Assembly (NCBI GenBank): GCA_021781655.1
Contig: JAJXWJ010000019.1
Span: forward strand, 1 to 50,451
Origin: Bacillota bacterium
GTDB taxonomy: Bacteria; Bacillota; Clostridia; Clostridiales; Clostridiaceae
Length of the DNA stretch: 50,451 nucleotides
Reading direction: 5' to 3'
Position numbers and translations under genes: made by a program. The notes below the pieces were generated by a model. It was not told the DNA's origin. It made no database searches and saw only the letters and a program-made list of their open reading frames with translations. Positions 20,476 through 50,266 of this stretch are shown piece after piece; the first letter of the stretch is position 1, and each line of letters begins with the position of its first letter.

Positions 20476-20967
20476 ATGAAAAGAATCGTTACAAATACAC
20501 TTTTAGTCATTATATTTTTTATAATGGACAATACTTTTATGCCATTTTTAGCTATACACGGATATTACCCAAGTTTGTTGTTTATTTTTGCTTTATGCTA
20601 TTCTATGCTTAATGAAAGATGGTATGCATTAGGTATGGGAATTATTTGCGGATTTTTGCAAGATATTTATTTTTTTAATGGCTTTGGCGTAAATATGCTA
20701 TTAAACATGCTACTATGCTTAATAGCAGGAGAAATAGGTAGAAGCTTATTTAAAGAAAAGATGTTTATTCCTGTTATATCTATATTTTGTTTGACTTTTA
20801 TAAAAGGTTTATGTATTTATGAAATATTGCACATGTCGGGTTTATATTCTAATATTTACAACTCTGTATTTAATGCGGTTTACAGTTTCTTTATAGCAAT
20901 AATAATGTATAGAGTGATTTATAAATTGTATCAAAAACAATATATGATAAGAAATTGGAAAATATAA
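20476..20967 (+). CDS. mreD: Rod-shape determining protein MreD
   Basis: A 163-residue polytopic membrane protein with five or six hydrophobic segments, in the expected place between MreC and PBP2. The conserved stretch GIICGFLQDIYFFNGFGVN matches the family, where G-x-x-x-D near a membrane segment is typical. The ribosome binding site is GGGTGATTTT. It ends 11 bases before the PBP2 start. Confidence 0.9.
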   Translation: MKRIVTNTLLVIIFFIMDNTFMPFLAIHGYYPSLLFIFALCYSMLNERWYALGMGIICGFLQDIYFFNGFGVNMLLNMLLCLIAGEIGRSLFKEKMFIPVISIFCLTFIKGLCIYEILHMSGLYSNIYNSVFNAVYSFFIAIIMYRVIYKLYQKQYMIRNWKI

Positions 20968-20978
20968 GTGGTGATCAA

Positions 20979-23717
20979 ATGTTAAATTTAGAGAAAAAAC
21001 GTAAAAAGAAGATTTTAAGCAGATATACAGCATTGTTTATGTTCATTTTATTTATAATAGGAACAATAGGTTATCAACTATATAGCCTTCAAGTAGTACA
21101 AGGGGCTGAAAATAGTCAAAAAGCAAGTACGAATTCAATTAAGGACATACCAATAGATGCTCCTAGAGGAAATATTACAGATAAAAATGGCGTCATCCTT
21201 GCAAACAATAAACAAAGCTATAATGTTACCTTTATGGAAAGCAATTATAGTGACAATAAAACCAATAATTTTTATAGCACTATGAACAAGGTTTTTCAAA
21301 CTATGGATGAAAACAGGGAAACTCAAAATGATACTTTCCCGTTAAAGGTAAATCCTTATAGATTTGAATTTAACACAAGCGATCCTAATGTTATTAAAAC
21401 TTTGCAACTTAGGTTTTTAAAAGACAGAGGAGTTCAAAGTTTAATTTTGAAACAAGATTTTAAAAATAAGGCGGAGAGCACCTTAACTACAGCAGAAGAA
21501 AACAAGTTAAATGAAGAACTATTAAGCTTATCTCCGGAAACAGTTTATAATTATTTGATGACTAGTTATGGTATTGATAAAGGCTTGAAAACTGTAGACC
21601 CAAACTATTCTGTAGCTGAATCTAGAAGATACATGCTAGTTAAGGATGCAATAAAAATGCAGAGCTTTACTGGATATCAGCCAATAGACATTTACAGTAA
21701 TATAAGTTATAACAGCTATTTGATAATGATGCAGAAGATGTCCCAATTACCAGGTATAAATGTTGATATACAGCCATTAAGACAGTATCCATATGGAAGC
21801 TTAGCATCTCCAGTAATTGGATATATTAGCAAGATAAGCAGTAGCGATCAAGAAAAGTATCAAGAAAAAGGCTATGACACAAGTACTGAATATATAGGTG
21901 CATCAGGAATGGAAGCGGCAATGGAGAAATGGCTTCACGGAGAAAATGGTGAACAGGTAGTACAGGTAGATAAACAAGGGAATACTACTAAAAACTTATC
22001 AACTAAACCAGCACAGCAAGGTGATAATATTCAGCTTACAATTGATGCAAATGTTCAATATGCAGCAGAGCAAGGTTTAAGTAACGAACTGAAACAGCTT
22101 CAAGCAACTGGTAATATACAAGGTAATATGAATATAAGTAATGCTACAAGAGGAGCTGCTGTTGTTGTAGATGTTCACACTGGTGGAATTCTAGCCCTAG
22201 TAAGTTTACCTGATTTTAACCCAAATGATTTTTCTAATCCTAATGGACTTACCGATGCAGAGATCAATAAATATTTTAATACCGATTATGAAAGCATGGC
22301 TAAAGCCAAGGGAATGTCACAATCTCTTATCGATTTTATGTTTCCTGTAGATACAAGTATAAAAGGAAATACTACAAAGAGAGTAGATAAGTATGATTAT
22401 TTTCCGAAACCTTTATATAATTATGCTACTATGTCCTTAGTACCATCAGGTTCAACCTTTAAACCTGTTGTAGCTGTAGCAGGACTACAAACGGGTGTGA
22501 TAAATTCTAGCTTTACAATCTATGATTCAGGTAGTTTTAACGATGGCAAAGGCTTTACAGATGAATTTTTATCGGATGGAGCCCATGGTATTACTAATAT
22601 TGTGAAGGCGATTACCGTTTCCAGTAACCCATTTTTTATGACTGTTGCACAGCTTTTAAAGGATAAATTTGGACCTAATGAAATTGCTAAATATGCTTGG
22701 TTATTTGGTTTAGGTGCAGACCCTAATGGACCGAGTTCCGCTGCAAGTACAGGAATAGAAATTCCAGAAAATTTTGGTCAGGTTTATAATTCAACTTCTC
22801 AAAAAAATGTGGATGCAGCTCAATTTTTGCTTAATGCGGAGAGAGATCTTTCTACAGGCATTGCATTAGACGGTACTAAAATGCCTGTTGTAGATATTTC
22901 TGACAATGCAAATGATAGCCAAGATGTTGCAAGTATAAAAACTCAAATAAAAACTGAATTTCAGAATGCAATAAAAAATTATACTTCGACAAAAAATGAA
23001 ACTCCAACAAATTTTGCACCTTTACTTAAGCAGTTATTTTCAAAAGATCCTAAATATAAAGGCCAATCGATTTCAGAAGCACAAATAAATTTAATTTCAA
23101 GCGATATGAATACTGAAATTAATCGTGCGATAGATGATATGAATTTGCCATATCACACATATGTTGCAGCTATAGGGCAGGGTATGGATGCTTTTACACC
23201 GCTTCAAATGGCAGGATATGTAGCAACACTTGCAAATGGTGGAAATAGAATGAAACTTCATCTTTTAGATAAAGTGACAGATGCTAATGGAAATGTAGTG
23301 GAGCAAGTACAACCAGAAGTTTTGGATAAGGTTGATATGAGCAGCACTACACAGCAGCTAGTTATGGAAGGAATGAATGGCGTTACATCTTCAAGTCAAG
23401 GCGGAGCAGAAGGAACAGCAGCTGCTGAATTAGGGCCTTTTAGCCAATATATTCAAACTGCAGGTAAAACAGGTACTGCTGAATTTAATACAGCAGATAT
23501 TCAAAATAAGATAGGCAGAACTGACTATGCTTGGTTTATAGGTTATGCACCAGCAACTAATCCTCAAATTGCTGTGTCGGTTGTAATGTTTGATGGTGGT
23601 TACGGTGAATATTCAGCTAATGTAGCTAGAGATATTTATGAAGCATATTTTAAAACAGAGCTTCAACAAAAAGGATTTAAATTTGATATAAATGTAAATG
23701 CACAACCAGAAAATTAA
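20979..23717 (+). CDS. mrdA: Penicillin-binding protein 2, copy 1 (elongation transpeptidase)
   Basis: A class B transpeptidase for cylindrical wall growth, 912 residues from ATG 20979, which follows GGTGAT; an upstream TTG is rejected. There is one membrane anchor (ALFMFILFIIGTIGYQLY), a PBP dimerisation domain beginning at APRGNITDKNG, and the transpeptidase with STFK (S492, K495), SSN (S548-N550) and KTGT (K830). It is longer than most PBP2 proteins because of an insertion of roughly 70 residues between the second and third motifs (about 640-710). It follows mreD directly. A near-identical second copy lies downstream, and all active-site motifs are intact in both. Confidence 0.95.
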   Translation: MLNLEKKRKKKILSRYTALFMFILFIIGTIGYQLYSLQVVQGAENSQKASTNSIKDIPIDAPRGNITDKNGVILANNKQSYNVTFMESNYSDNKTNNFYSTMNKVFQTMDENRETQNDTFPLKVNPYRFEFNTSDPNVIKTLQLRFLKDRGVQSLILKQDFKNKAESTLTTAEENKLNEELLSLSPETVYNYLMTSYGIDKGLKTVDPNYSVAESRRYMLVKDAIKMQSFTGYQPIDIYSNISYNSYLIMMQKMSQLPGINVDIQPLRQYPYGSLASPVIGYISKISSSDQEKYQEKGYDTSTEYIGASGMEAAMEKWLHGENGEQVVQVDKQGNTTKNLSTKPAQQGDNIQLTIDANVQYAAEQGLSNELKQLQATGNIQGNMNISNATRGAAVVVDVHTGGILALVSLPDFNPNDFSNPNGLTDAEINKYFNTDYESMAKAKGMSQSLIDFMFPVDTSIKGNTTKRVDKYDYFPKPLYNYATMSLVPSGSTFKPVVAVAGLQTGVINSSFTIYDSGSFNDGKGFTDEFLSDGAHGITNIVKAITVSSNPFFMTVAQLLKDKFGPNEIAKYAWLFGLGADPNGPSSAASTGIEIPENFGQVYNSTSQKNVDAAQFLLNAERDLSTGIALDGTKMPVVDISDNANDSQDVASIKTQIKTEFQNAIKNYTSTKNETPTNFAPLLKQLFSKDPKYKGQSISEAQINLISSDMNTEINRAIDDMNLPYHTYVAAIGQGMDAFTPLQMAGYVATLANGGNRMKLHLLDKVTDANGNVVEQVQPEVLDKVDMSSTTQQLVMEGMNGVTSSSQGGAEGTAAAELGPFSQYIQTAGKTGTAEFNTADIQNKIGRTDYAWFIGYAPATNPQIAVSVVMFDGGYGEYSANVARDIYEAYFKTELQQKGFKFDINVNAQPEN

Positions 23718-23897: not shown

Positions 23898-26645
23898 ATG
23901 CTAAGTTTAAACAAAAAACGTAAAAATAAGTTTCTAAACAGATATGCAGCACTGTTTTTATTTATTTTATTTATAATAGTAACTGTAGGATATAAACTAT
24001 ATAATCTTCAAGTATTACAAGGAGATGAAAATAGTCAAAAAGCAAGTACAAACTCAATTAAAGACATATACATAGATGCTCCTAGAGGAAATATTACAGA
24101 TAAAAACGGTGTCATACTTGCAAACAATAAACAAAGCTATAATGTCACCTTTATGGAAAGCAATTATAGTGACAACAAAAGCAATAATTTTTATGCTACT
24201 ATGGCAAAGGTTTTTCAAATTATGGATGAAAACAAGGAGACTCAAAATGATACCTTCCCTTTAAAGGTAAATCCCTTTAGATTCGAATTTAACACAAACG
24301 ATCCTAATGCTATTAAAACTTTGCAACTTAGGTTTTTAAAAGACAGAGGGGTTCAAGGTATGATTTTGAAAAAATATTTTAATAATAAGTCTGAGAGTAC
24401 TTTAACTTCTGCAGAAGAAAACAAGTTAAATGGGTACCTTATAAGCTTATCTCCAGAGACAGTTTATAATTATTTGATGACTAGCTATGGTATTGATAAA
24501 GGCTTGAAAACTGTAAACTCAAACTATTCTGTAGCTGAATCTAGAAGATACATGCTAGTTAAGGATGCAATAAAAATGCAGAGTTTTACTGGCTATCAGC
24601 CAATAGATATTTATAGTAACATAAGTTATAACAGTTATTTGATAATGATGCAGAAAATATCAAAGCTTCCAGGTATAGATGTTGCAATACAACCATTAAG
24701 ACAATATCCGTATGGCACGCTTGCGTCTCCTGTAATTGGATATATTAGCAAGATAAGTAGCACTGATCAAGAAAAGTATGAAGAAAAAGGATATAATACA
24801 AGTACAGATTATATAGGTGCATCAGGAATGGAAGCAGCAATGGAGAAATGGCTTCACGGACAAAATGGTGAACAGGTAGTACAAGTTGATAAGCAAGGAA
24901 ATACTACTAAAAATTTAGCAACTAAACCAGCACAGCAAGGAAATAATCTTCAGCTTACAATTGATGCAAATGTTCAATATGCAGCAGAGCAGGGTTTAAA
25001 TAATGAGTTTCAAAAGCTTCAGGCAGAAAAGCAGACCTCTGATGGAATGAATATTACAAATGCAAATAGAGGTGCTGTAGTTGTAACCGATATTCATACT
25101 GGTGGAATATTAGCTCTTGTAAGTTTGCCTGATTTTAATCCAAATGATTTTTCTAATCCAAAGGGACTTACAGATGCTGATATTAAAAAATACTTTAATA
25201 CAGATTATGAAAGTATGGCTAAAGCAAAAGAAATGTCACAGGCTCTAATTGATCAAATGTTTCCTATAAACACTAGCATTGCTGGAAATACTACTATGAG
25301 AACAGATAGATATGACTATTTTCCTAAGCCTCTATACAATTATGCTACGATGTCGCTTTTGCCTTCTGGTTCTACTTTTAAACCTATCACTGCAGTTGCA
25401 GGCCTTCAAGAAGGTGTTATAGATGCTAATACTACTGTAAACGACTTAGCAGAATATAATTTAGGAGATGCTACTCATCCTGATATGGTATATTTTAAAA
25501 GTGATGGACCTCATTATGTTACGAATATAGTAAAAGCTATAACAGTATCCAGTAACCCATTTTTTATGGAAGTAGGTAAATTACTTAGGGCAAAGCTTGG
25601 AGCAGATGGATTAGCAAAATATGCTTGGCAATTTGGAATGGGTGCTGACCCTAATGGCCCAACTTCAAACGCTAGCACAGGGATAGAAATACCAGAAAAT
25701 TTTGGCCAAGTATTTAATACTGTATCTCTTAAAAATAACAATGCTAATATGTTTCTAATAAATGCAGAAGGAGATTTAAATTCTGGGGTTAGTATTTCTA
25801 AAGGGAAACTTCCTGTTATAAATTTATACGACAACAGTGGAGATAGTAAAAATGTAGCAAGTATAAAAACAGAGATAAAAAATGATTTTAAAAATGAAGT
25901 TAAAAAACCTGGTATAAAGACAGTTATAACTACGGATTTCAAAACCCTATTTAATAATCTTATAGCATCAGATCCGATTTATAAGGGAAAAAAATTATCT
26001 AATTCAGATATTAATTGTGTAGTTGCAGAAATAACAAATCAAATTATGGCAGCAAGGAATGATATTGATAGACCATATCATTCGTATGAAAGTGCTATAG
26101 GTCAGGATATGGATGCTTTTACTCCCCTTCAAATTGCAGATTACATGGCAACACTTGCAAATGGGGGGACAAGATATAAAAGTCACTTACTGGATCAAAT
26201 TACGGATTCTAATGGTAATGTAGTAGAAAAAGTAAAACCTCAAGTTTTAAATACTGTGCAAATGACTTCTGAAATAAAAAGCCTTGTTTCAGAAGGTATG
26301 AATGGAGTTACGGATGCTGGGGCTGGAGGAATGGCAGGTACTGCTGCACAAGCCTTAGGTGATTTTAATAACTATGTTCCTACAGCAGGAAAAACTGGTA
26401 CTGCCGAATTTGGTGAAAATACAGATCTTCAAACTCAAATTGGTAGAGCGGATTATGCGTGGTTTGCTGGATATGCACCAGCAACAAATCCACAAATATC
26501 GGTTGCAGTTGTTATTTTTGATGGAGGTTACGGTGCTGATGCGGCTAACGTAGCTAGAAATGTATATGAAGCATATTTTAAAACGCAATTGCAGCAAAAG
26601 GGCTATAAATTTGATATAGGTGTAAATGCACAACCAGAAAATTAA
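23898..26645 (+). CDS. Penicillin-binding protein 2, copy 2
   Basis: A 915-residue paralogue of the preceding gene with long identical stretches. The membrane anchor is ALFLFILFIIVTVGYKLY, and the active site is complete: STFK with S492, SSN with S551-N553, KTGT with K832. Differences cluster in the stretch before the SxN motif and in the insertion before KTGT, while the N-terminal 350 residues are nearly the same. It has its own GGAGGTG binding site and lies 180 bases past copy 1, behind a terminator, so it probably has its own promoter. It may be a stage-specific elongation transpeptidase or a recent redundant copy. Confidence 0.93.
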   Translation: MLSLNKKRKNKFLNRYAALFLFILFIIVTVGYKLYNLQVLQGDENSQKASTNSIKDIYIDAPRGNITDKNGVILANNKQSYNVTFMESNYSDNKSNNFYATMAKVFQIMDENKETQNDTFPLKVNPFRFEFNTNDPNAIKTLQLRFLKDRGVQGMILKKYFNNKSESTLTSAEENKLNGYLISLSPETVYNYLMTSYGIDKGLKTVNSNYSVAESRRYMLVKDAIKMQSFTGYQPIDIYSNISYNSYLIMMQKISKLPGIDVAIQPLRQYPYGTLASPVIGYISKISSTDQEKYEEKGYNTSTDYIGASGMEAAMEKWLHGQNGEQVVQVDKQGNTTKNLATKPAQQGNNLQLTIDANVQYAAEQGLNNEFQKLQAEKQTSDGMNITNANRGAVVVTDIHTGGILALVSLPDFNPNDFSNPKGLTDADIKKYFNTDYESMAKAKEMSQALIDQMFPINTSIAGNTTMRTDRYDYFPKPLYNYATMSLLPSGSTFKPITAVAGLQEGVIDANTTVNDLAEYNLGDATHPDMVYFKSDGPHYVTNIVKAITVSSNPFFMEVGKLLRAKLGADGLAKYAWQFGMGADPNGPTSNASTGIEIPENFGQVFNTVSLKNNNANMFLINAEGDLNSGVSISKGKLPVINLYDNSGDSKNVASIKTEIKNDFKNEVKKPGIKTVITTDFKTLFNNLIASDPIYKGKKLSNSDINCVVAEITNQIMAARNDIDRPYHSYESAIGQDMDAFTPLQIADYMATLANGGTRYKSHLLDQITDSNGNVVEKVKPQVLNTVQMTSEIKSLVSEGMNGVTDAGAGGMAGTAAQALGDFNNYVPTAGKTGTAEFGENTDLQTQIGRADYAWFAGYAPATNPQISVAVVIFDGGYGADAANVARNVYEAYFKTQLQQKGYKFDIGVNAQPEN

Positions 26646-41240: not shown

Positions 41241-41260
41241 GCAATTTAGAGGTGATAATT

Positions 41261-41875
41261 TTGGATAAGAAAAAAATAATTGGATCTGTAATCATTCTTT
41301 TCTTTTTTATACTATTTTTTATAGCAGGATTTTTTATATTTAAAGGTCAAGTTAACAGTAACGATTTAGTGATTTTTAATGGTGAAGATAAAAAAGTTAC
41401 AAGTGAAGGAAATAAAACGGTAGCTACTATAGGCAATGAAACAAAAAAATACATAAAAGCACAAATATATGGTGAAGTCAAAAATCCCGGTGTATATAGC
41501 CTAAAAGAAGGAGATAGAATAAAAGATTTAGTAAATGCGGCTGGTGGTTATAATGAAAATGCAAATAAATTTAGCGTAAATAATGCAAAAAAACTAAGCG
41601 ATGGAGATAATATTGAGATAAAAAAAGTAGGAGAAAAAACTATAGCTGGAGTTTCAAATAATTCATCACAAAATGATGAAAAGTTAAATTTAAACAATGC
41701 TTCTGAAGCTGAAATAGTTAGTAAAAAAATACCAGGTATAGGTGCAGCCCTAGCAAAAAAGATTGTACAATATAGAGAAAATAATAATGGAAGAATAAAT
41801 TCTATGGAGGAGCTAGGAAAAGCTATAGGACCTAAAAGGGCTGCAAACATAATTGGGTATATTACTTTAGATTAA
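41261..41875 (+). CDS. comEA: ComEA-type DNA-binding competence protein
   Basis: A 204-residue membrane-anchored DNA receptor for natural uptake. One helix at the start (IIGSVIILFFFILFFIAGFFI), an SLBB domain at about 70-125 (IYGEVKNPGVYSLKEGDRI) and a C-terminal helix-hairpin-helix pair (LNLNNASEAEIVSKKIPGIG, AKKIVQYRENNNGRI) are in family order. TTG 41261 is preferred, 5 bases after GGTGAT; GTG 41252 lies in the binding site. comEC is 5.6 kb away rather than next door. Confidence 0.9.
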   Translation: MDKKKIIGSVIILFFFILFFIAGFFIFKGQVNSNDLVIFNGEDKKVTSEGNKTVATIGNETKKYIKAQIYGEVKNPGVYSLKEGDRIKDLVNAAGGYNENANKFSVNNAKKLSDGDNIEIKKVGEKTIAGVSNNSSQNDEKLNLNNASEAEIVSKKIPGIGAALAKKIVQYRENNNGRINSMEELGKAIGPKRAANIIGYITLD

Positions 41876-43803
41876 AACCTAAACATGCCGCTATATTGAA
41901 AATCCTCTTCTCCAGAAAAGGTGAGCCTATTAGCCCCAGACTCCCAATTTATATGGTTATTATCTTTTCTAAATAATTTAAATTCAATAATAGAATTTTT
42001 AGGGACATAAATTTTTGTTTCCAATTTATTATCCATAAATTCCAGCTTAACTGCGTTATAATTATTCCACTTGCCAAGCTCTGGTAAATTTCCAATTAAA
42101 TAAAATTCAGTGTTAGGAATAATAATATAATTTGAAGGAAGTTTTAGTGAAAAAAATATACAAACCTCGTTAACTGTATCTTCGTTGCTAAAGCAAGGAA
42201 GCCATATTGAGTAAAAGTTTTTTACAACTTTAAAGTTACCATAGCCTGCTTTATTTATAACTACTTTTTCAAAGGTTGAACCTGTACAATCGTAAAATGA
42301 AGCATTTGCATGATGAGTACCAACATACATCCATTTTGAAACGTTGTTTTCTTTTGAAATTACTGCTGCTAAGCCAGAAGTTTTTATTTTTTTATGACCT
42401 TCTCTTGTCCACCCTATAACATTGCCATCATCAAAATAATCGTGCTGCTCACCATATGCATAATCTTTTCTTACTTTTAATATTAAGTCAAGTGTTTTTC
42501 TCATAGGACATATGTTATAAGAAGAGTTTCCGTAATAGTCACCATAAAATATGCAAGGAATACCTTCTTTTCTTGTCAATATAAAGGTATATGCAAGAGG
42601 TTTAAACCATGGCTTAATCCAAGATTCCAGAGATTGATAAGGTTCAGTATCATGATTGTCAACAAAGGTGACAGCTCTCTGAGGATTAAATTGTGATAAA
42701 GTATCGTCTAGTAGTCTGGAAAAATTAAAATCTTTATTTTGAGAAGCATCATAAAACTTAAAGTGTAAGGGAACATCGAATAAATGCATACAATTTTCAG
42801 TTGCATTTAAATAATATATTAATTTGTTTAAATCACCACTCCAATATTCACCAACAGCAAAAAAATCTTTCTTATATTTATCTCTTAAATAAGAAAGCCA
42901 TTCTTTGTAAAAACTAAACTTAATATGCTTAACAGCATCCAATCTAAACCCATCCACTTTTGTTGTTTCAACATACCAACTTCCCCATTTTTTTAATTCC
43001 TTTACAACTTCCTCTTTTGACATATTTATATCAGCATAAATTAAATATTCAAAATTTCCGTTTTCATTGTCTACATCTTCACTCCAATTGTTGTCATTTC
43101 CATAAAATTTAAAAATACTATTTTCTTTCGTTTTATTGTCAAAATCAACAGCATTAAAATGGCTTGAGTTCCATTTAAAATTAGAATATTTATTTTCTCT
43201 ATTTTTAAAATTAAATCTTGTCCAAGCATCGATAAACAAAGGAGTACCTATAGTTTTATTTCTGTCACTTTTGTCTACTCGTATTGCTTTAACTTTTTCA
43301 GTTTCATCGGCACCACCTTTATGACTTAACACTATATCAGCATAAATTTCTATTCCATACTTATGAGCTTCATTTATTGCTTCTAGGTATTCATCTTTTG
43401 TCCCATATTTTGTTGAAACAGAACCTTTTTGATTGAATTCGCCTAAATCATATAAATCGTAGGGTCCGTATCCAACATCATCTTTTCCATTTGCACCCTT
43501 ATAAGCAGGTGGAAGCCAAAGTGCAGTAATTCCTATTTTTGAAAGGTGCTTAATTTGTAAAGAAATACTTTTCCAAAGTGAACAATCTGGCATAAGGTAC
43601 CATTCAAAATATTGCATAATAGTTTGGTTTTCATGAGCGATTTGACTGATATTTACCACCTCCTGTTCTATTTCTAAACAACTTTCATCTTCATTATTAA
43701 TTTTTTTATCAGTATAGCTAGGTGTGATTTTTTCTATTTGTAATGTATTTTTTCTATTTTGTCTTTGGATAATTGTAAAAAAATATTTTAGAAACAGTTT
43801 CAT
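41872..43803 (-). CDS. GH13 alpha-amylase with C-terminal starch-binding (CBM20-like) domain
   Basis: A 643-residue alpha-amylase. About 60 residues of unknown, charged sequence precede the TIM barrel, which begins TIMQYFEWYL. Catalytic residues are D289 (GFRLDAVKH), E319 (AVGEYW) and D385 (FVDNHDTEP). The layout resembles Bacillus liquefying amylases (GH13_5). The last 100 residues look like CBM20 (FYLIGNLPELGKWN, IEFKLFRKD, WESGANR). The N-terminus MKLFLKYFFTIIQRQNRK lacks a clear signal peptide, so the enzyme may act inside the cell, perhaps on stored granulose. Its end overlaps comEA by 4 bases, convergently. An internal AGGAGGTGG near codon 48 has no good start behind it. Confidence 0.9.
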   Translation of the reverse strand: MKLFLKYFFTIIQRQNRKNTLQIEKITPSYTDKKINNEDESCLEIEQEVVNISQIAHENQTIMQYFEWYLMPDCSLWKSISLQIKHLSKIGITALWLPPAYKGANGKDDVGYGPYDLYDLGEFNQKGSVSTKYGTKDEYLEAINEAHKYGIEIYADIVLSHKGGADETEKVKAIRVDKSDRNKTIGTPLFIDAWTRFNFKNRENKYSNFKWNSSHFNAVDFDNKTKENSIFKFYGNDNNWSEDVDNENGNFEYLIYADINMSKEEVVKELKKWGSWYVETTKVDGFRLDAVKHIKFSFYKEWLSYLRDKYKKDFFAVGEYWSGDLNKLIYYLNATENCMHLFDVPLHFKFYDASQNKDFNFSRLLDDTLSQFNPQRAVTFVDNHDTEPYQSLESWIKPWFKPLAYTFILTRKEGIPCIFYGDYYGNSSYNICPMRKTLDLILKVRKDYAYGEQHDYFDDGNVIGWTREGHKKIKTSGLAAVISKENNVSKWMYVGTHHANASFYDCTGSTFEKVVINKAGYGNFKVVKNFYSIWLPCFSNEDTVNEVCIFFSLKLPSNYIIIPNTEFYLIGNLPELGKWNNYNAVKLEFMDNKLETKIYVPKNSIIEFKLFRKDNNHINWESGANRLTFSGEEDFQYSGMFRF

Positions 43804-43881: not shown

Positions 43882-44373
43882 TTAATAAAAATAGTTATCA
43901 TAAAGTTTGTTAGTACATCCGTAGTCTATTAGTATTGGCTTTTCATCTAATATTCCCCAAGAAGAAATAGCTTTTATATCAGGGTATAGTAAATCATAAT
44001 GTCTAGCGATTTTTTTGATATTTTTAAAGAATAGGCTATCTGCTTTAATATTGGTGTATTCAAAGATGCTTCCATGCTTATGACCTATTATTTCTGTAAA
44101 GGGCACAGCTTTTCTCATGACTATCATGCCCTTTTTATACCATATTATTGGACAAAAATATTTTTTATTTTTTTCTTGAATGTTAGTATATATATAATTT
44201 TCTGTTCTGCATTGGTAGTTGCCAGTTTTTCCTTTAGATACTTTCATAACATAATCATCATTAATTTCAAATACAATTCTGCTAGCACCTTCACCTAAAT
44301 ATTTATAATTTTTTTTAATATAATTTCGGTTTGCTTCATATATGTTTTCAAACAATTCAAAAGGTACATCCAC
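43882..44373 (-). CDS. Small protein kinase-like fold protein
   Basis: A 163-residue protein that resembles a shortened protein kinase or phosphotransferase. GEGASRIVFEI looks like the glycine loop and DDYVMKVSKG like the ATP-binding lysine strand. Near the end, WGILDEKPILIDYG resembles the metal-binding DFG segment, preceded by YPDIKAISS where a catalytic loop would be. Most of a normal C-lobe is missing. Similar short kinase-like proteins occur in phages and clostridia; activity is unproven. GTG 44373 is chosen because AGGAGG lies 7 bases before it; ATG 44394 is upstream of that site. It probably shares a transcript with the amylase 78 bases downstream. Confidence 0.6.
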   Translation of the reverse strand: MDVPFELFENIYEANRNYIKKNYKYLGEGASRIVFEINDDYVMKVSKGKTGNYQCRTENYIYTNIQEKNKKYFCPIIWYKKGMIVMRKAVPFTEIIGHKHGSIFEYTNIKADSLFFKNIKKIARHYDLLYPDIKAISSWGILDEKPILIDYGCTNKLYDNYFY

Positions 44374-44439
44374 ATTAATCCCTCCTAAAAACATAAATGC
44401 TTTTGTTCATTAATAATATATAAACTTAAGTAAATTATG

Positions 44440-44448: not shown

Positions 44449-44563
44449 TAATGCAAAACAATTTTTAGCCTTTGCTAAAGTTTATTTGAATTTAATGCGA
44501 TAAATAAGAGAAAACTACTTTAATTAGGTGTTTTTTATTTAGAAGGATGAGGTGGAATATGCT

Positions 44564-47137
44564 TTGACAGATTGGTATAATTTATCTTCGTCAGCTACTG
44601 TAGATTTACTAAGAAGTGATTCGAATCGAGGGTTAAACGATGAACAAGTTACAAATAATAGAGGTACCTTTGGTAAAAATATAATAACAGAAGTAAAAAG
44701 ATATGAATTTTATAAAAATATTGCAAAGATATTTAAAGAGCCATGGGCTTTAATGCTTTTATGTGTAATAGCCATTCTCATTTTTTTGCATAGCTATATA
44801 GAAGCTGCAATTATATTGCTAATTCTTTTATTAAATTCAATTATATTGCTTTCAGAAAAATATGAGAATCAAAAGAAATTAAAAGAAATTAAAAATTTAA
44901 ATCTTGGAAGATGCAGTGTTTTAAGAAACGGAAATCTTGTAAACCTAGAAACTGCAGAGGTGGTAGTTGGTGATATAGTTATTTTTGGAAGAGGTAGTGT
45001 AATACCAGCGGATATTAGAATTATATCTGCTGAAGATTTAAGAGTTAATGAAGTCTCAATAACTGGAGATAACAACATTGTAGATAAATACTCATCAAAG
45101 CTTTTGGAAACGGATTTAAGTTTATCGGAAATGAGAAATATATTGTTTAAATCATCTAACGTAATTAACGGTAGCGGTGAAGGAGTAGTTGTAGCTGTAG
45201 GTGCAAGTACAGAAATTGGGAAGCTTATGCAGTCTATGATGGAAATAGATAAGGAAGAGAATACCTTTAATAAAGGCATTCAAACAATAATAAATGCACT
45301 ATGTGTCATTTTTTTAGTAGGCTCTATTTTTATTTATATTATTAAGCTTTTAAGCAAAGTTTCAAATTACATCATATTGAAGGGACTAGAAAAGGTGATA
45401 TTAGCTGCAGTGCCTTTTGGAATAGCTATTTGTTTATATTTTATATGGTTAATAATCAAATTGGTTAATAAAAAAGAACAAATACATATAAATAGTTTTG
45501 CAGCTATTAAAGAATTAAGCACCATAGATACTATTTTGACGGACAAAGAGGGTATTTTAACTGAAGATACAATGGAAGTTAGAAAAATATTTGACCTGGA
45601 AAAAATAATTGATGTAAAAGAAAAATTTGAAATGAATTATAATTTAGATAGAATTATTGAAATTGGAGTTTTATGTAATGATTGTTCGCAAAATGATGAA
45701 AAAAACAGTAGAGTCGATATTGCGGAAAAAGCTATAATAAATTTTGCTAATGAAATAGATATAGATAGTGATTTCCTTTTAGATACGCAAAAGAGAATTT
45801 TAAAAATGCCTTATGATAAAGTTAGAAGAATAAAAACTACAGTCCATCATCTTAGTAAAAGTAACTATAGGGCATATATAAAAGGTGCTGTTGACGTTAT
45901 ACTTTCTGAATGTACACACATTATGAAAAATGGAGTGGAAATAGAAATTAATGAAGATGAAGTAAATAGTATTAAAGCTGCAGACATAGAAATGTCAAGC
46001 GCATGTCTTTATGTTTTAGCCTTTGCTTATAGGAGTTTTAAATATAAACCAAGCAATAATGAGAATTTGGAAAGCAATTTAGTTTTTGCTGGACTAATAG
46101 GTTTTTATAATCCAATAAAGGCGGATATGGACTCTTTACTTAGCAAATTTAGGTTGCTTGCAGTTAAACCGATTATTATAACTGAAGACAGCAAATTAAC
46201 CGCCATGGCAATAGGGGAAAAATATAATCTTATCAATCTAGGTGATTTAGTAGTGTCTGGTTTTGAAATCGATAATCTTGAGCAAGGCGAGCTTCAAAAT
46301 AGTATAGATAAGTTTAGCATATTTTCAAGAATAAATAATTGGCATAAAATAAACATAATAAATTTTTTAAAGGAAAAAGGAAAAAATATTGCATTAACAG
46401 GCAATAAATTATTAGATTTGCCATCTTTAAGACTTGCAAAGATTTCAATAGCTTACGGACAAAGCTGCAGCAAAATAGTAAAAAATCTTTCTGATGTTTA
46501 TGTTGAAGATATTAATTTATTAAAAATTGCTGATTTTTTAAAATCCAGTAGAAGTATAATTAATTGTATTCGAGAAATTTGTAAGTTTATTTGTTTTTGT
46601 AGTTTAAGTCAGTTTTTATTTTCCGCGTTAGCTTTTTTACTGATGAGTAAAGATACTTTTAGTTTTACGCAGCTTTTGTGGCTAAATTTAGGGAATTTAA
46701 TTATTAGTTCTTTAATAATATTTTTTAACAGAAACAATATTGAACAAGATATAAATACCAATTATTCAATTGATATAAAAAGTTTAGTTGTAGATAAAAA
46801 TTTAATAGCTTACTTTTCTGTAATTATATGTGCAGTAGCGTTCTCATTGTTATCTATAACGGGGCTTTTAAAAAATATTTCAATTGAAAATATTTTATTC
46901 GGATTTTTCTTATTTGCTGAAACAATTGTTCTTTATAGCAAGATTATAATTAAAGGAATAAAAATAAATTTATTTACTTTATTTCATTTTATACTTAATA
47001 GTGCATTAATTTATTATCTTAATAGGGGAATGGTTGAATTGGTATCAATTTCTTGTGCGGTTTTCGTGTTCATTGCCATAGTATTATTAACAAGGTTTCT
47101 AAATGTATTCGGAGGCGAAGAAGTTATTGATTTTTAA
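44564..47137 (+). CDS. P-type ATPase-like membrane protein, probably catalytically inactive
   Basis: An 857-residue protein with the full layout of a P2-type cation ATPase: cation ATPase N-terminal domain, actuator, phosphorylation and nucleotide domains, and about ten membrane helices. The key motifs are changed. The phosphorylation motif DKTGT is DKEGI (D327 kept). The actuator TGES is TGDN (167-170). TGDGxNDxPAL is TGNKLLDLPSL (612-622). The helix-4 PEGL is PFGI (284-287). The helix-6 ion site NxxTD is NLGNL (708-712). KGAVD in the nucleotide domain is kept. The reading frame is intact over its full length, so it looks selected rather than decaying. TTG 44564 follows GAGGTGG; GTG 44552 is an alternative. 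Role unknown; a regulatory or scaffold pseudoenzyme is my inference. Confidence 0.85.
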   Translation: MTDWYNLSSSATVDLLRSDSNRGLNDEQVTNNRGTFGKNIITEVKRYEFYKNIAKIFKEPWALMLLCVIAILIFLHSYIEAAIILLILLLNSIILLSEKYENQKKLKEIKNLNLGRCSVLRNGNLVNLETAEVVVGDIVIFGRGSVIPADIRIISAEDLRVNEVSITGDNNIVDKYSSKLLETDLSLSEMRNILFKSSNVINGSGEGVVVAVGASTEIGKLMQSMMEIDKEENTFNKGIQTIINALCVIFLVGSIFIYIIKLLSKVSNYIILKGLEKVILAAVPFGIAICLYFIWLIIKLVNKKEQIHINSFAAIKELSTIDTILTDKEGILTEDTMEVRKIFDLEKIIDVKEKFEMNYNLDRIIEIGVLCNDCSQNDEKNSRVDIAEKAIINFANEIDIDSDFLLDTQKRILKMPYDKVRRIKTTVHHLSKSNYRAYIKGAVDVILSECTHIMKNGVEIEINEDEVNSIKAADIEMSSACLYVLAFAYRSFKYKPSNNENLESNLVFAGLIGFYNPIKADMDSLLSKFRLLAVKPIIITEDSKLTAMAIGEKYNLINLGDLVVSGFEIDNLEQGELQNSIDKFSIFSRINNWHKINIINFLKEKGKNIALTGNKLLDLPSLRLAKISIAYGQSCSKIVKNLSDVYVEDINLLKIADFLKSSRSIINCIREICKFICFCSLSQFLFSALAFLLMSKDTFSFTQLLWLNLGNLIISSLIIFFNRNNIEQDINTNYSIDIKSLVVDKNLIAYFSVIICAVAFSLLSITGLLKNISIENILFGFFLFAETIVLYSKIIIKGIKINLFTLFHFILNSALIYYLNRGMVELVSISCAVFVFIAIVLLTRFLNVFGGEEVIDF

Positions 47138-47198: not shown

Positions 47199-47495
47199 AT
47201 GTTTGATAATGTTTTAGAAACTGTTGCTATAGATAGCAATACAGTAACTTTAAATATACCTAAAAAAGATTTTTTATTTATGTACGGAAATTATAATAGA
47301 GATTCAGCACAAAATTATGTTGATAATTATTTTAGAGAAAAAGGGAAAGATGGCATACCCTTTGTAAGTGAAATAACTGTTGATGAATTTTCTCATACAG
47401 TTAAAATTTCTATAGAAGTAAATTATAATAGGGACTTCAAATTAGATCAATTTGAAACTCCAGATGCTCTAAATGAAAATAGAAATTACTTTTAG
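47199..47495 (+). CDS. Hypothetical protein before comEC
   Basis: A 98-residue soluble protein that I do not recognise. It has no cysteine or signal peptide, is acidic, and is rich in tyrosine and asparagine (FMYGNYNRDSAQNYVDNYF; VEVNYNRDF). The strong GAGGTGGTGAAATT site shows it is translated. Its end overlaps the comEC start by 23 bases, so comEC is probably made by translational coupling from it. It lies 61 bases after the ATPase-like gene. Confidence 0.7.
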   Translation: MFDNVLETVAIDSNTVTLNIPKKDFLFMYGNYNRDSAQNYVDNYFREKGKDGIPFVSEITVDEFSHTVKISIEVNYNRDFKLDQFETPDALNENRNYF

Positions 47496-49230
47496 ACCTC
47501 TTGTTATTTTTTGTGTTTCACTAATTGTTGGATGTTTATCAGCATTATTGTTTAAGTGCAATATATTTTTAGATGTAGTAATAGCTGCATCTTTTTTTAT
47601 CTTTACATATTTATACTGCCCAAAAAAAATCATAATTATATGCGCCATATTTTTTGTTATCGGCTTTTTAAGCTTCATTACATATTTTAATGTTACCTTA
47701 GAAGATAACAAACTATACTGTTTAAGGATAATTAGTATAAATAAATACTATGCTAAAGCAAATTATTTTGGAAGAAGTTTAGAACTTTCAGGTAATTTTG
47801 ATAAGGTTGAGCGAGGCAATATTGTTTTTGTTAAAGGAAAGTTTGAAAAAAAGGATGATTACCAATATGGTACAATTGGACAGTTGAAAATTAAGAAAAT
47901 AGATAAAATAAATAAAGATAATATTTCAAATATATATGACTTTAAAGAAGCTTTATTTGAAAGATTTAGCAAAAGGATAGGTAATGAAAAAAGTGGAATG
48001 TTAATGGCTCTTTGCTTTGGTGATAGAACAAATTTGCAAAAAGATGATAAAAGTCAGTTAGAAACTTTAGGTATTGTTTATATTATATGCATTTCAGGTC
48101 TTCATATGCTAATAGTTTTTAAATTTTTAAAAAAATTTCTACCACTAGAAGCAGCTATTATAATTACAGCTTTTTATACTGCTTTTACTGGCTGCGAACC
48201 GGCTAGCTTAAGAGCACTTATTATGATAATTAATTTTCAGTTTTCAAAAAGGGTAAGAAGAAATTATGATTTTCTTTCATCCCTTTGCTTATCAGCACTG
48301 CTAATTTTAATTTTTAAGCCATACTATATAGTAAATATAGCTTTTACCTTATCATTTTTAGCCACTCTTGGAATAAAATTATTTTATAAGAAATTAACTA
48401 AGGTATTTTATAGATTACCAAAAAGGTTAAATGAAAGTTTAAGCATAGGCTTAAGCGTTCAAAGTCTTGTAATGCCCTATTCATTGTTTACTTTAAAGAC
48501 TTTAACCTTTGCTTTTGTTTTTGGCAATTTATTTTTAATACCTATATATACAGGTATAATAATATTAGGCATAATATCATTGCCATTTATATATTTACCT
48601 TTGGTTTTTAACTTTATATGTAATTTAATATGGATTTTATACATAGCGGCAATAGGAGCTTCAGGCCTTTTGGAAAAGCTGTCTTTACCTATTTTCTATG
48701 TAACAAGCTATGATGCGTATATTATATTTGCATTATATTTAGTTTATATTTTATTTAAGCTTGGTTACAAAAAAACAGCATATTTGATTCCAATGCTATT
48801 TATTTTGGCAATGGTTCAGTTTTATTCTTTTATTCCATCAGTTTCTTATGTATGCTTAAAAGGTGGAGAAGGCGTTATAGTTAGAAATAAATTTAAATCA
48901 GTTTTGATTTCTAATGTAAATTTAAAAGATCAAGCTGAAAAAGATAAAATTTTAAAAATCATTAATGTAAATAGTTTTATATATGCAGCAAAAGGAGTAA
49001 AGTTATCATTAAATGACAATTATTTTGTAAGCTTTCAAGAACATTGTTTAAAGGTTGAAAATAATACAAAACAAATTTTAATGGCAGATAAAAATGAAGC
49101 TATGTTTAATGGTCTAGGATATAGCAAAAATTATGATATAATGTATTTTGATAATAAAAATAACCAATATCCATTTGAAGAAGGATATTTTTGCATAATA
49201 AAAGATAAAATAATTGGAATTAAAGAGTAG
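47473..49230 (+). CDS. comEC: ComEC/Rec2-type competence channel, short form
   Basis: A 585-residue polytopic protein of the ComEC DNA-uptake channel family. Two helices start the protein, an OB-like region follows (about 75-150), then the competence domain with KSGMLMALCFGDRTNL, the hallmark ISGLHML and TAFTGCEPASLRAL, and further helices to about 455. After that only about 130 residues remain. They begin VCLKGGEGVIVRNKFKSVLIS, like the first strands of the usual metallo-beta-lactamase domain, but the HxHxDH metal site is absent. Bacillus ComEC has nearly 800 residues. The start lies within the preceding gene and has no strong binding site of its own. Confidence 0.85.
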   Translation: MKIEITFRPLVIFCVSLIVGCLSALLFKCNIFLDVVIAASFFIFTYLYCPKKIIIICAIFFVIGFLSFITYFNVTLEDNKLYCLRIISINKYYAKANYFGRSLELSGNFDKVERGNIVFVKGKFEKKDDYQYGTIGQLKIKKIDKINKDNISNIYDFKEALFERFSKRIGNEKSGMLMALCFGDRTNLQKDDKSQLETLGIVYIICISGLHMLIVFKFLKKFLPLEAAIIITAFYTAFTGCEPASLRALIMIINFQFSKRVRRNYDFLSSLCLSALLILIFKPYYIVNIAFTLSFLATLGIKLFYKKLTKVFYRLPKRLNESLSIGLSVQSLVMPYSLFTLKTLTFAFVFGNLFLIPIYTGIIILGIISLPFIYLPLVFNFICNLIWILYIAAIGASGLLEKLSLPIFYVTSYDAYIIFALYLVYILFKLGYKKTAYLIPMLFILAMVQFYSFIPSVSYVCLKGGEGVIVRNKFKSVLISNVNLKDQAEKDKILKIINVNSFIYAAKGVKLSLNDNYFVSFQEHCLKVENNTKQILMADKNEAMFNGLGYSKNYDIMYFDNKNNQYPFEEGYFCIIKDKIIGIKE

Positions 49231-49240
49231 GTGGAATAAC

Positions 49241-50266
49241 TTGATTAATTTTTTAGATTTGGATAACAATTTAAAGGTGAAAAAAATAAATAACTTTTAT
49301 ATTTTTTGTGGATTTAATGAAAATATAATAAAAGAATACATAAAAAATATATCGCTCATTGCTACTAATAATAATTTTCTAGATTTAAATTATTTTGAAT
49401 ATGATGGGAATAAGGTTACATATGATGATATAATAAACAGTTGTGAAACGTTGCCTTTTTTAAGTGATAAAAAGGTTGTTGTAATTTATAGAGCTAATTT
49501 TTTTAGTGACAAAGGCAAAGCTATGAATAAGAATGGTGATGAAATAATTAAACAGCTTATTAAATATGACGTTCCAAGCCACTGTGTTTTAATGATATAT
49601 TATATTTTTGAAAATGATAGAGAAAAGGTAAGCAGCAAGGTAAGAAAGTTTGATAAGAAAGCTTTAGTAGTGGAGTTTACCAAGTTAAAGGGAATGTTGC
49701 TTCAAAAAAAAGTTAAAGAAATGTTTAAGGAAAAAGGGAAAGATATTGGAAAGGCAGAGTTGGGTTTTTTTTGTAGTGAGGTCGAAAACAATCTGGATAT
49801 TATAGAAAATGAAATAGAAAAACTATGCTGCTATTGTGAAGAAAAAAATATTTTAAGGGAAGATATAATTGCACTTCTTCCTCATAAAAGCGATAGTGAT
49901 ATTTTTAATTTGGTCGATTTTCTTTCACAAAAGAAAGTAGAAAATGCGCTGGAAATATTAGATGAACTAATGTTTAGAGGAGAAAAAGCCACATATATTT
50001 TATCTATGTTTGAAAGGCAATTTAGATTGATGATAAATATTAAGTTTAAAATGGAGGAAGGAAAGAGTAAAGAAGAAATTTCAGCAGAAGAGAAGCTACA
50101 TCCCTTTGTTTGCGAAAAACTTATGATGCAATGCAAAAAGTTTACTGCCCTGCAATTAGCTAAAGCTGAAGAACTATGTTTAAAAACAGAACTTTTATTA
50201 AAAAGTACAGGTGGGGAAGACAAAATCAAATTAGAGCTGCTCATAATAAATAGTGCTATGCTGTAA
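49241..50266 (+). CDS. holA: DNA polymerase III subunit delta
   Basis: A 341-residue clamp-loader delta subunit that opens the sliding clamp ring. The family pattern is visible: NNFYIFCGFNENIIKEYI, VTYDDIINSCETLPFLSDKKVVVIYRANF, CVLMIYYIFEN and the C-terminal collar domain IFNLVDFLSQKKVENALEIL with LSMFERQFRLMINIK. TTG 49241 follows GGTGG by 7-8 bases; a TTG 9 codons earlier lies inside comEC. The order comEC-holA-rpsT (opposite strand) is standard in Firmicutes. Confidence 0.92.
   Translation: MINFLDLDNNLKVKKINNFYIFCGFNENIIKEYIKNISLIATNNNFLDLNYFEYDGNKVTYDDIINSCETLPFLSDKKVVVIYRANFFSDKGKAMNKNGDEIIKQLIKYDVPSHCVLMIYYIFENDREKVSSKVRKFDKKALVVEFTKLKGMLLQKKVKEMFKEKGKDIGKAELGFFCSEVENNLDIIENEIEKLCCYCEEKNILREDIIALLPHKSDSDIFNLVDFLSQKKVENALEILDELMFRGEKATYILSMFERQFRLMINIKFKMEEGKSKEEISAEEKLHPFVCEKLMMQCKKFTALQLAKAEELCLKTELLLKSTGGEDKIKLELLIINSAML

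Follow-up and report, generated by a model that had tools for sequence, protein, structure and literature searches.

The window, by which the whole analysed stretch of 50,451 nucleotides is meant (contig JAJXWJ010000019.1 of assembly GCA_021781655.1, a Bacillota bacterium of the Clostridiaceae), carries upstream of comEC a gene for a P2-type ATPase homologue, here called the pseudo-ATPase. P-type ATPases are textbook pumps, and the superfamily is defined by their motifs; judged by the defining motifs tested, the window protein is a P-type ATPase by descent and not a working pump. The motif loss was found throughout a clade of relatives under purifying selection, and this clade very probably consists of non-pumping pseudoenzymes. 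The gene and its start region were located as follows.

44564 to 47137, + strand: pseudo-P2-type ATPase, 857 aa from a TTG start (open frame; Pfam; AlphaFold2 model).
44550 to 44555, + strand: likely ribosome-binding site AGGTGG, eight bases 5' of the TTG start, read directly.

The reading frame was uninterrupted whether counted from a GTG (44552-47137, 861 codons) or from the TTG (44564-47137, 857 codons), confirming the unbroken 857-codon frame of an earlier reading made from the DNA letters (the sequence-only reading). The TTG is the better start, because AGGTGG lies eight bases upstream and most relatives in a 25-row alignment have Met at its column; residues are numbered here as in the 861-residue (GTG) product. 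The window protein passed the Pfam cut-offs of Cation_ATPase_N, E1-E2_ATPase (6.7e-30) and Cation_ATPase, as well as that of NCBIfam TIGR01494 (HAD-IC P-type ATPase; 108.5 bits, cut-off 62.3). None of the pump-specific NCBIfam equivalog cut-offs (Ca, Mg, H, Na/K) was reached, the best score being 305.5 bits vs. 798.3 needed (TIGR01522) and that on the PMCA-type model 184 vs. a cut-off of 507. The closest solved relative by sequence was LMCA1 (lmo0841), a Ca2+-ATPase of Listeria (PDB 6zhf and 9euq; E 1.5e-80), which shares the P2A architecture with residues 9-736 aligned, and which was also first by Foldseek E-value (6zhh). The Pfam and LMCA1 matches indicated that the P-type ATPase homology of the sequence is beyond chance. 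However, LMCA1 carries DKTGT, TGES, the PE of membrane helix 4 (M4; PEAL) and TGDGVNDAPAL, and the window protein lacks all of these. Because the window genome also encodes a normal paralogue (L002) with DKTGT, TGES and GDGVND, the motif loss is specific to the window gene.

The loss was then traced through the relatives. In a search of 98 related genomes, 29 relatives (L004-L032) from other genomes were recovered at 31-40% identity, none of which carried DKTGT or GDGxND. Among named genomes, 129 relatives were verified by a scan, and the best 80 of these were analysed; of 206 genomes of the family (Clostridiaceae), a minority was classified. Seventy-five of the 80 were of the pseudo type, coming mostly from species named Clostridium and from a few Hathewaya, Haloimpatiens, Inconstantimicrobium and unclassified assemblies, and DKTGT or GDGxND was present in none of these 75 loci. 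The remaining five (L091, L105, L106, L108 and L111) were ordinary pumps with both motifs and with no comEC match beside them. In trees built with 20 and with 11 pseudo rows plus 35 canonical pumps, the pseudo proteins formed one clade on a long stem (Shimodaira-Hasegawa-like approximate likelihood-ratio support, SH-aLRT, 100). Orthologues with normal motifs, which the sequence-only reading had named as evidence that would speak against a pseudoenzyme, were found neither in the 75 named loci nor in the 42 family comEC regions with an upstream ATPase (see below).

Columns were compared between 75 pseudo rows (74 named members and the window protein) and 35 canonical pumps, with the following replacements in the window protein.

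45062 to 45073, + strand: TGDN replacing TGES of the actuator (A) domain, residues 171-174; E173 in 51/75 pseudo rows, S174 in 2/75 (0.03).
45413 to 45424, + strand: PFGI replacing the M4 ion-site PEGL, residues 288-291; E at column 289 in 5/75 pseudo rows (0.07) vs. 35/35 canonical pumps.
45542 to 45556, + strand: DKEGI replacing DKTGT, residues 331-335; acceptor over the 75 pseudo rows D 41, E 14, K 10, N 7, P 3.
46181 to 46192, + strand: TEDS replacing TGDH; column 545 E or D in 70/75 pseudo rows, G in 35/35 canonical pumps.
46397 to 46429, + strand: TGNKLLDLPSL replacing TGDGxNDxPAL, residues 616-626; first D (D618) in 15/75 pseudo rows, G619 in 0, N621 in 1, D622 in 66.
46685 to 46699, + strand: NLGNL replacing NxxTD, the ion site of membrane helix 6 (M6), residues 712-716; D716 in 0/75 pseudo rows vs. 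35/35 canonical pumps, N712 in 60/75.

All motifs quoted in the sequence-only reading (TGDN, PFGI, DKEGI, KGAVD, TGNKLLDLPSL and NLGNL) were present as quoted, KGAVD at residues 444-448, and its statement that nearly all motifs are changed stood as well, with the refinement that the last Asp of TGDGxND (D622) remains. Among 163 columns at least 95% conserved in canonical pumps, just 24 were conserved to at least 90% in the pseudo family. Of the two Thr in DKTGT, the first (T333) was kept in only 1/75 rows and the second in 9/75. The acceptor Asp was replaced in 34/75 rows, and 15 or more switches between Asp and another residue are required on a FastTree tree, which indicates that phosphorylation is dispensable. 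Since the DKTGT/TGDGxND centre is gone, the protein is predicted to be incapable of being phosphorylated or of pumping, and the missing Mg2+/phosphate and ion-site residues would in practice exclude pumping by the known cycle. The residues that persist, namely Asp at D331 in 41/75 rows, K332 in 74/75, K599 in 71/75 and D622 in 66/75, might still suggest an ATPase or phosphatase that works by unorthodox chemistry. However, T333, G619, N621 and D618, which we take to be the Mg2+/phosphate-holding positions, are gone (1/75, 0, 1 and 15 rows, respectively), and a putative acceptor that is E, K, N or P in 34/75 rows makes such an enzyme very improbable.

The ratios of nonsynonymous to synonymous substitution rates (dN/dS), determined by the Nei-Gojobori method for nine pairs with dS < 0.7, were 0.101-0.162 for the pseudo-ATPase in eight of these nine closest pairs. 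On the same nine pairs, those of comEC and holA were 0.10-0.21 and 0.03-0.13, respectively, so the constraint on the pseudo-ATPase was comparable to that on comEC. The pooled value was 0.141 (seven pairs), with 0.07-0.095 in the A, nucleotide-binding (N) and phosphorylation (P) domains and 0.17-0.31 in the membrane segments. These values are far below 1, near which the sequence-only reading would have expected them for a gene not maintained, and the maintained pseudoenzyme that it proposed for one gene was borne out for the whole clade by clade-wide motif loss, purifying selection and whole frames. A lone decaying copy was rejected because the motif loss is clade-wide and selection is purifying. 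A relic drifting to a pseudogene would account for the lost catalytic motifs and for the absence of the gene from 15/57 family comEC regions; it is, however, already contradicted by the whole frames, the dN/dS of about 0.14 (seven pairs) and the new family-specific invariants, and we consider it hardly credible.

Conservation was distributed differently along the two groups of proteins. Mean identities in the pseudo vs. canonical sets were 0.45 vs. 0.42 in the N domain, 0.46 vs. 0.56 in the A domain, 0.32-0.37 vs. 0.67-0.78 in the P domain, 0.18 vs. 0.59 in M3-4 and 0.19 vs. 0.64 in M5-6; because the sets are not equally deep, the ranking of parts inside each one is more informative than the absolute identities. 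Canonical pumps were most conserved in the P domain and M3-M6, with the N domain among their least conserved parts, while the pseudo set reversed this order, with the membrane segments as its least conserved part (0.18-0.22). The N domain is the sole domain that is more conserved in the pseudo family than in working pumps, and its conservation peaked at two places.

45587 to 46102, + strand: N domain, residues 346-517 (bounds by eye from the model); mean pairwise identity 0.45 pseudo vs. 0.42 canonical.
45902 to 45946, + strand: N-domain hot spot 1, residues 451-465; 0.62 pseudo vs. 0.30 canonical.
46031 to 46084, + strand: N-domain hot spot 2, most of the signature YRxFxYxPSxxENIESNLV; block 496-510, 0.76 pseudo vs. 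0.28 canonical.

The family invariants were clustered in the N domain, R440, R494, Y498, P500, E504, N505 and S508 being present in 75/75 rows and E463 and F496 in 74/75; E507 was also invariant in 75/75 pseudo rows, but it is equally so in 35/35 pumps. At the positions that we assume to be equivalent to the nucleotide site of SERCA, the expected residues occurred in 75 rows for R494 (presumably Arg560 of SERCA, an ATP contact), G445 and E/D392, in 64 for R/K426, in 62 for K/R444 and in 56 for Y/F421. From these kept and newly fixed residues we infer that the N domain binds a ligand.

The AlphaFold2 model, built with 25 family sequences, showed a whole P2 fold (mean predicted local distance difference test score, pLDDT, 81.9; predicted TM score 0.77). 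Against P2 structures it gave Z of about 27-33, with the A, P, N and membrane domains of the P-type fold present. The best overlay was with E2 states of SERCA (5zmv, 4ycm and 2oa0; Foldseek TM 0.88 for 5zmv, root-mean-square deviations 3.0-3.3 over ~845 residues), and the top Z scores were those with SPCA1a in E2P (7yam, 32.7) and MgtA (8uy9, 32.5); the window protein differs from SERCA, SPCA1a and MgtA in being without catalytic or Ca2+-site residues. The resemblance of the model to an E2 state was left uninterpreted, because a control AlphaFold2 model of nine canonical sister proteins was poor (pLDDT 47.4). The retention of the P2-fold membrane helices in the model would allow a passive membrane device, in which the transmembrane part serves as a channel, a scramblase or a chaperone of ComEC and the cytosolic domains are a mere scaffold. 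However, conservation is lowest and dN/dS highest in the membrane segments, the opposite of what is expected if a pathway through them mattered, and such a device is accordingly improbable.

The neighbourhood of the pseudo-ATPase in the window comprises the following genes.

41252 to 41875, + strand: comEA-like gene (SLBB and HHH; Pfam), upstream of the pseudo-ATPase.
47199 to 47495, + strand: small unannotated protein p98 (98 aa) between the pseudo-ATPase and comEC, overlapping the comEC start; no Pfam or NCBIfam match.
47473 to 49230, + strand: comEC, 585 aa, Competence domain only (Pfam Competence 2.2e-38).
49214 to 50266, + strand: holA, DNA polymerase III delta subunit (Pfam DNA_pol3_delta and its C-terminal domain).

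The gene thus stands beside comEC as the sequence-only reading had it, except that the 98-codon open reading frame at 47199-47495 intervenes. comEC followed downstream on the same strand in 74/75 named loci; in the other (L067) the contig ends first. The gap between the pseudo-ATPase and the next gene, p98 or comEC, was at most 150 bases in 61/75 loci and, in the C. beijerinckii group, ranged from -25 to +4 bases at seven loci, with overall medians of 62 bases over 42 family regions and 70 bases over the 75 named loci. These short or overlapping gaps suggest that the pseudo-ATPase and p98/comEC form one operon. In a promoter scan of the window, 21 sites were found vs. a shuffle mean of 26.3, that is, no excess, while terminator-like sites numbered 3 vs. 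0.9 in shuffles. Within the upstream sequence available (at least 7.5 kb in 70 of the 75 named loci), a comEA relative lay on the same strand in 23/75 loci, and within 1 kb in 10.

ComEC was located in 94/98 related genomes, and 93 regions (all but the window's own) were analysed. Upstream of the 57 family comEC genes stood a pseudo-ATPase in 42, a canonical ATPase in none and no ATPase in 15 (3 of which were contig-limited). Relatives of p98 were found beside comEC in 19/57 family, 13/15 sister-family and 2/2 third-family regions, and in 0/19 more distant ones. In the HolA tree the family formed one clade, with the pseudo-ATPase spread over its core and at least 7 present/absent changes; the six first-branching rows were without an upstream ATPase (one contig-limited), and the other absences were scattered. 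A lineage-restricted oddity was rejected on this spread over the family core together with the single clade of the subset trees. No pseudo copy was found elsewhere in five of the 15 genomes lacking it at comEC (G040, G036, G010, G007 and G024), where the best matches were canonical, and the best match in G022, in which no comEC was found, was canonical too.

Other genes of the window were recorded. Between comEA and the pseudo-ATPase, on the opposite strand, lie an alpha-amylase with a CBM20 starch-binding domain (41872-43803, - strand) and a 170-aa protein (43882-44394, - strand) with no Pfam match and a very weak aminoglycoside-phosphotransferase-like score (18.8 bits vs. a cut-off of 625); by tblastn, L033, L034 and L039 are the only ones of the 80 named loci with a match to the latter, which has the same position there. 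Two tandem genes at 20955-23717 and 23898-26645 (+ strand) each encode PBP_dimer and Transpeptidase domains.

ComEC itself is reduced in the family. The window ComEC matched neither Lactamase_B nor DUF4131 in Pfam, nor a home-made hidden Markov model (HMM) of the C-terminal metallo-beta-lactamase region. This HMM matched 0/57 family ComECs and 14/15 of the sister family, and Pfam gave a concordant result for the proteins checked, five from the family, with the window ComEC among them, and three from the sister family. Loss of the metallo-beta-lactamase domain and DUF4131 from Clostridiaceae ComEC is already reported in PMC6299819; the ComEC literature also includes PMC12455585.

The sister family, of the same order, presents a different state. 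Upstream of its 15 comEC regions stood a canonical ATPase in 11, a pseudo-ATPase in none and no ATPase in 4 (at least 1 contig-limited). This Ca2+-ATPase-type pump (L172, L174, L177 and L179-L184) occupies the equivalent position, preceding p98 and comEC/holA in the same orientation, but it differs in keeping DKTGT, TGES and GDGxND intact, and both of the rows examined scored above the PMCA-type NCBIfam cut-off; the adjacent ComEC keeps the beta-lactamase domain, while that of the Clostridiaceae is without it. The gap downstream of this pump was often 0.7-1 kb (median 782 bases, n=11). A normal pump beside comEC may be the ancestral state. Descent of the pseudo clade from the comEC-linked pump of the sister family was not rejected (approximately unbiased test, p 0.267), but the free tree placed the pseudo clade beside other Clostridiaceae pumps (support 79), and the tree does not decide the descent.

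The explanation that we favour combines these results. A P2-type ATPase would have lost phosphorylation, dephosphorylation and ion binding, and would have been kept under selection as a membrane protein with its whole fold, the N and A domains taking over as its working part from the P domain and the ion path through the membrane. The N domain would bind a nucleotide or a protein partner via a remodelled surface including the invariant YRxFxYxPSxxENIESN segment. The protein would act as a conformational, non-hydrolysing subunit of the neighbour-encoded ComEC, the DNA channel, a partner which in the Clostridiaceae family is itself without its metallo-beta-lactamase (nuclease) domain. The fixed place before comEC argues for the role of an accessory, and from this gene order such a role is tentatively proposed. 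What we infer is that activity is absent, that a ligand is bound and that there is contact with ComEC, and the reading as a whole, namely a non-pumping pseudoenzyme that is a ComEC accessory with a still ligand-binding N domain, is plausible though short of probable. The sensor of nucleotides or of the membrane, or the regulator acting on a neighbouring membrane protein, that the sequence-only reading tentatively suggested would agree both with the way conservation is distributed and with the constant position upstream of comEC.

Several observations weigh against this explanation. A TGES string occurs in 2/75 named loci, L093 (at the aligned place) and L102 (where the aligned letters are TGET), and also in L030, and the pair L056/L058 had a dN/dS of 0.308. 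Because the K444 and Y/F421 equivalents are missing from some rows, binding of ATP is perhaps not a general property of the family. Of the 15 family regions with comEC and no upstream pseudo-ATPase, 12 have enough upstream sequence, indicating that ComEC is not always dependent on the pseudo-ATPase. The family ComEC is without the beta-lactamase domain even in lineages lacking the pseudo-ATPase, so the domain loss is not tied to that gene, and an event-level link between ATPase-motif loss and ComEC beta-lactamase loss is not claimable. The comEA model scored over its cut-off in 55/59 family genomes, including 14/15 without the pseudo-ATPase; being nearly universal, comEA gives no support to the ComEC link. 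The partial distance correlation of the pseudo-ATPase after controls was 0.49 with ComEC vs. 0.45 with SpoIIP (27/74 loci usable), hardly a difference, so that the signal is not specific to ComEC.

The last two of these points also favour a pseudoenzyme independent of DNA uptake, namely a scaffold, or a sensor of nucleotides, ions or stress anchored in the membrane, whose position near comEC would merely reflect an inherited gene order. Since a normal pump already stands at this place in the sister family, with a looser gap, the comEC linkage may be historical. Against this stand the shorter gap in the pseudo family, which in some species shrinks to an overlap, and the presence of comEC downstream in 74/75 named loci. 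An independent role is doubtful to us, but it is a real possibility. To our knowledge, natural transformation is little documented in the Clostridiaceae. A farther-reaching form of the ComEC-accessory reading, in which this first described P-type pseudo-ATPase clade would be a ligand-responsive and non-hydrolysing ComEC subunit that has taken over lost control of the ComEC complex and gates DNA entry, is rather unlikely.

Among the matches listed in the open-licence literature (titles and abstract starts), no description of such a P-type pseudo-ATPase was found, nor any example of a P-type ATPase pseudoenzyme; the superfamily surveys of the Saier laboratory reportedly may list such sequences among uncharacterised families. 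Pseudokinases and iRhoms are general examples of pseudoenzymes, and the clade resembles them in that catalytic residues are lost while fold and selection are kept. A widespread maintained version without the motifs would mean that the P-type fold can serve a function other than pumping, and the conservation pattern directs attention to the N and A domains. In Clostridium genomes the pseudo-ATPase is presumably annotated as a cation pump, which would mislead. The constant position of the gene upstream of comEC makes it relevant to the question of whether, and by what means, these bacteria import DNA, and allows a simple and direct genetic test in industrial Clostridium strains.

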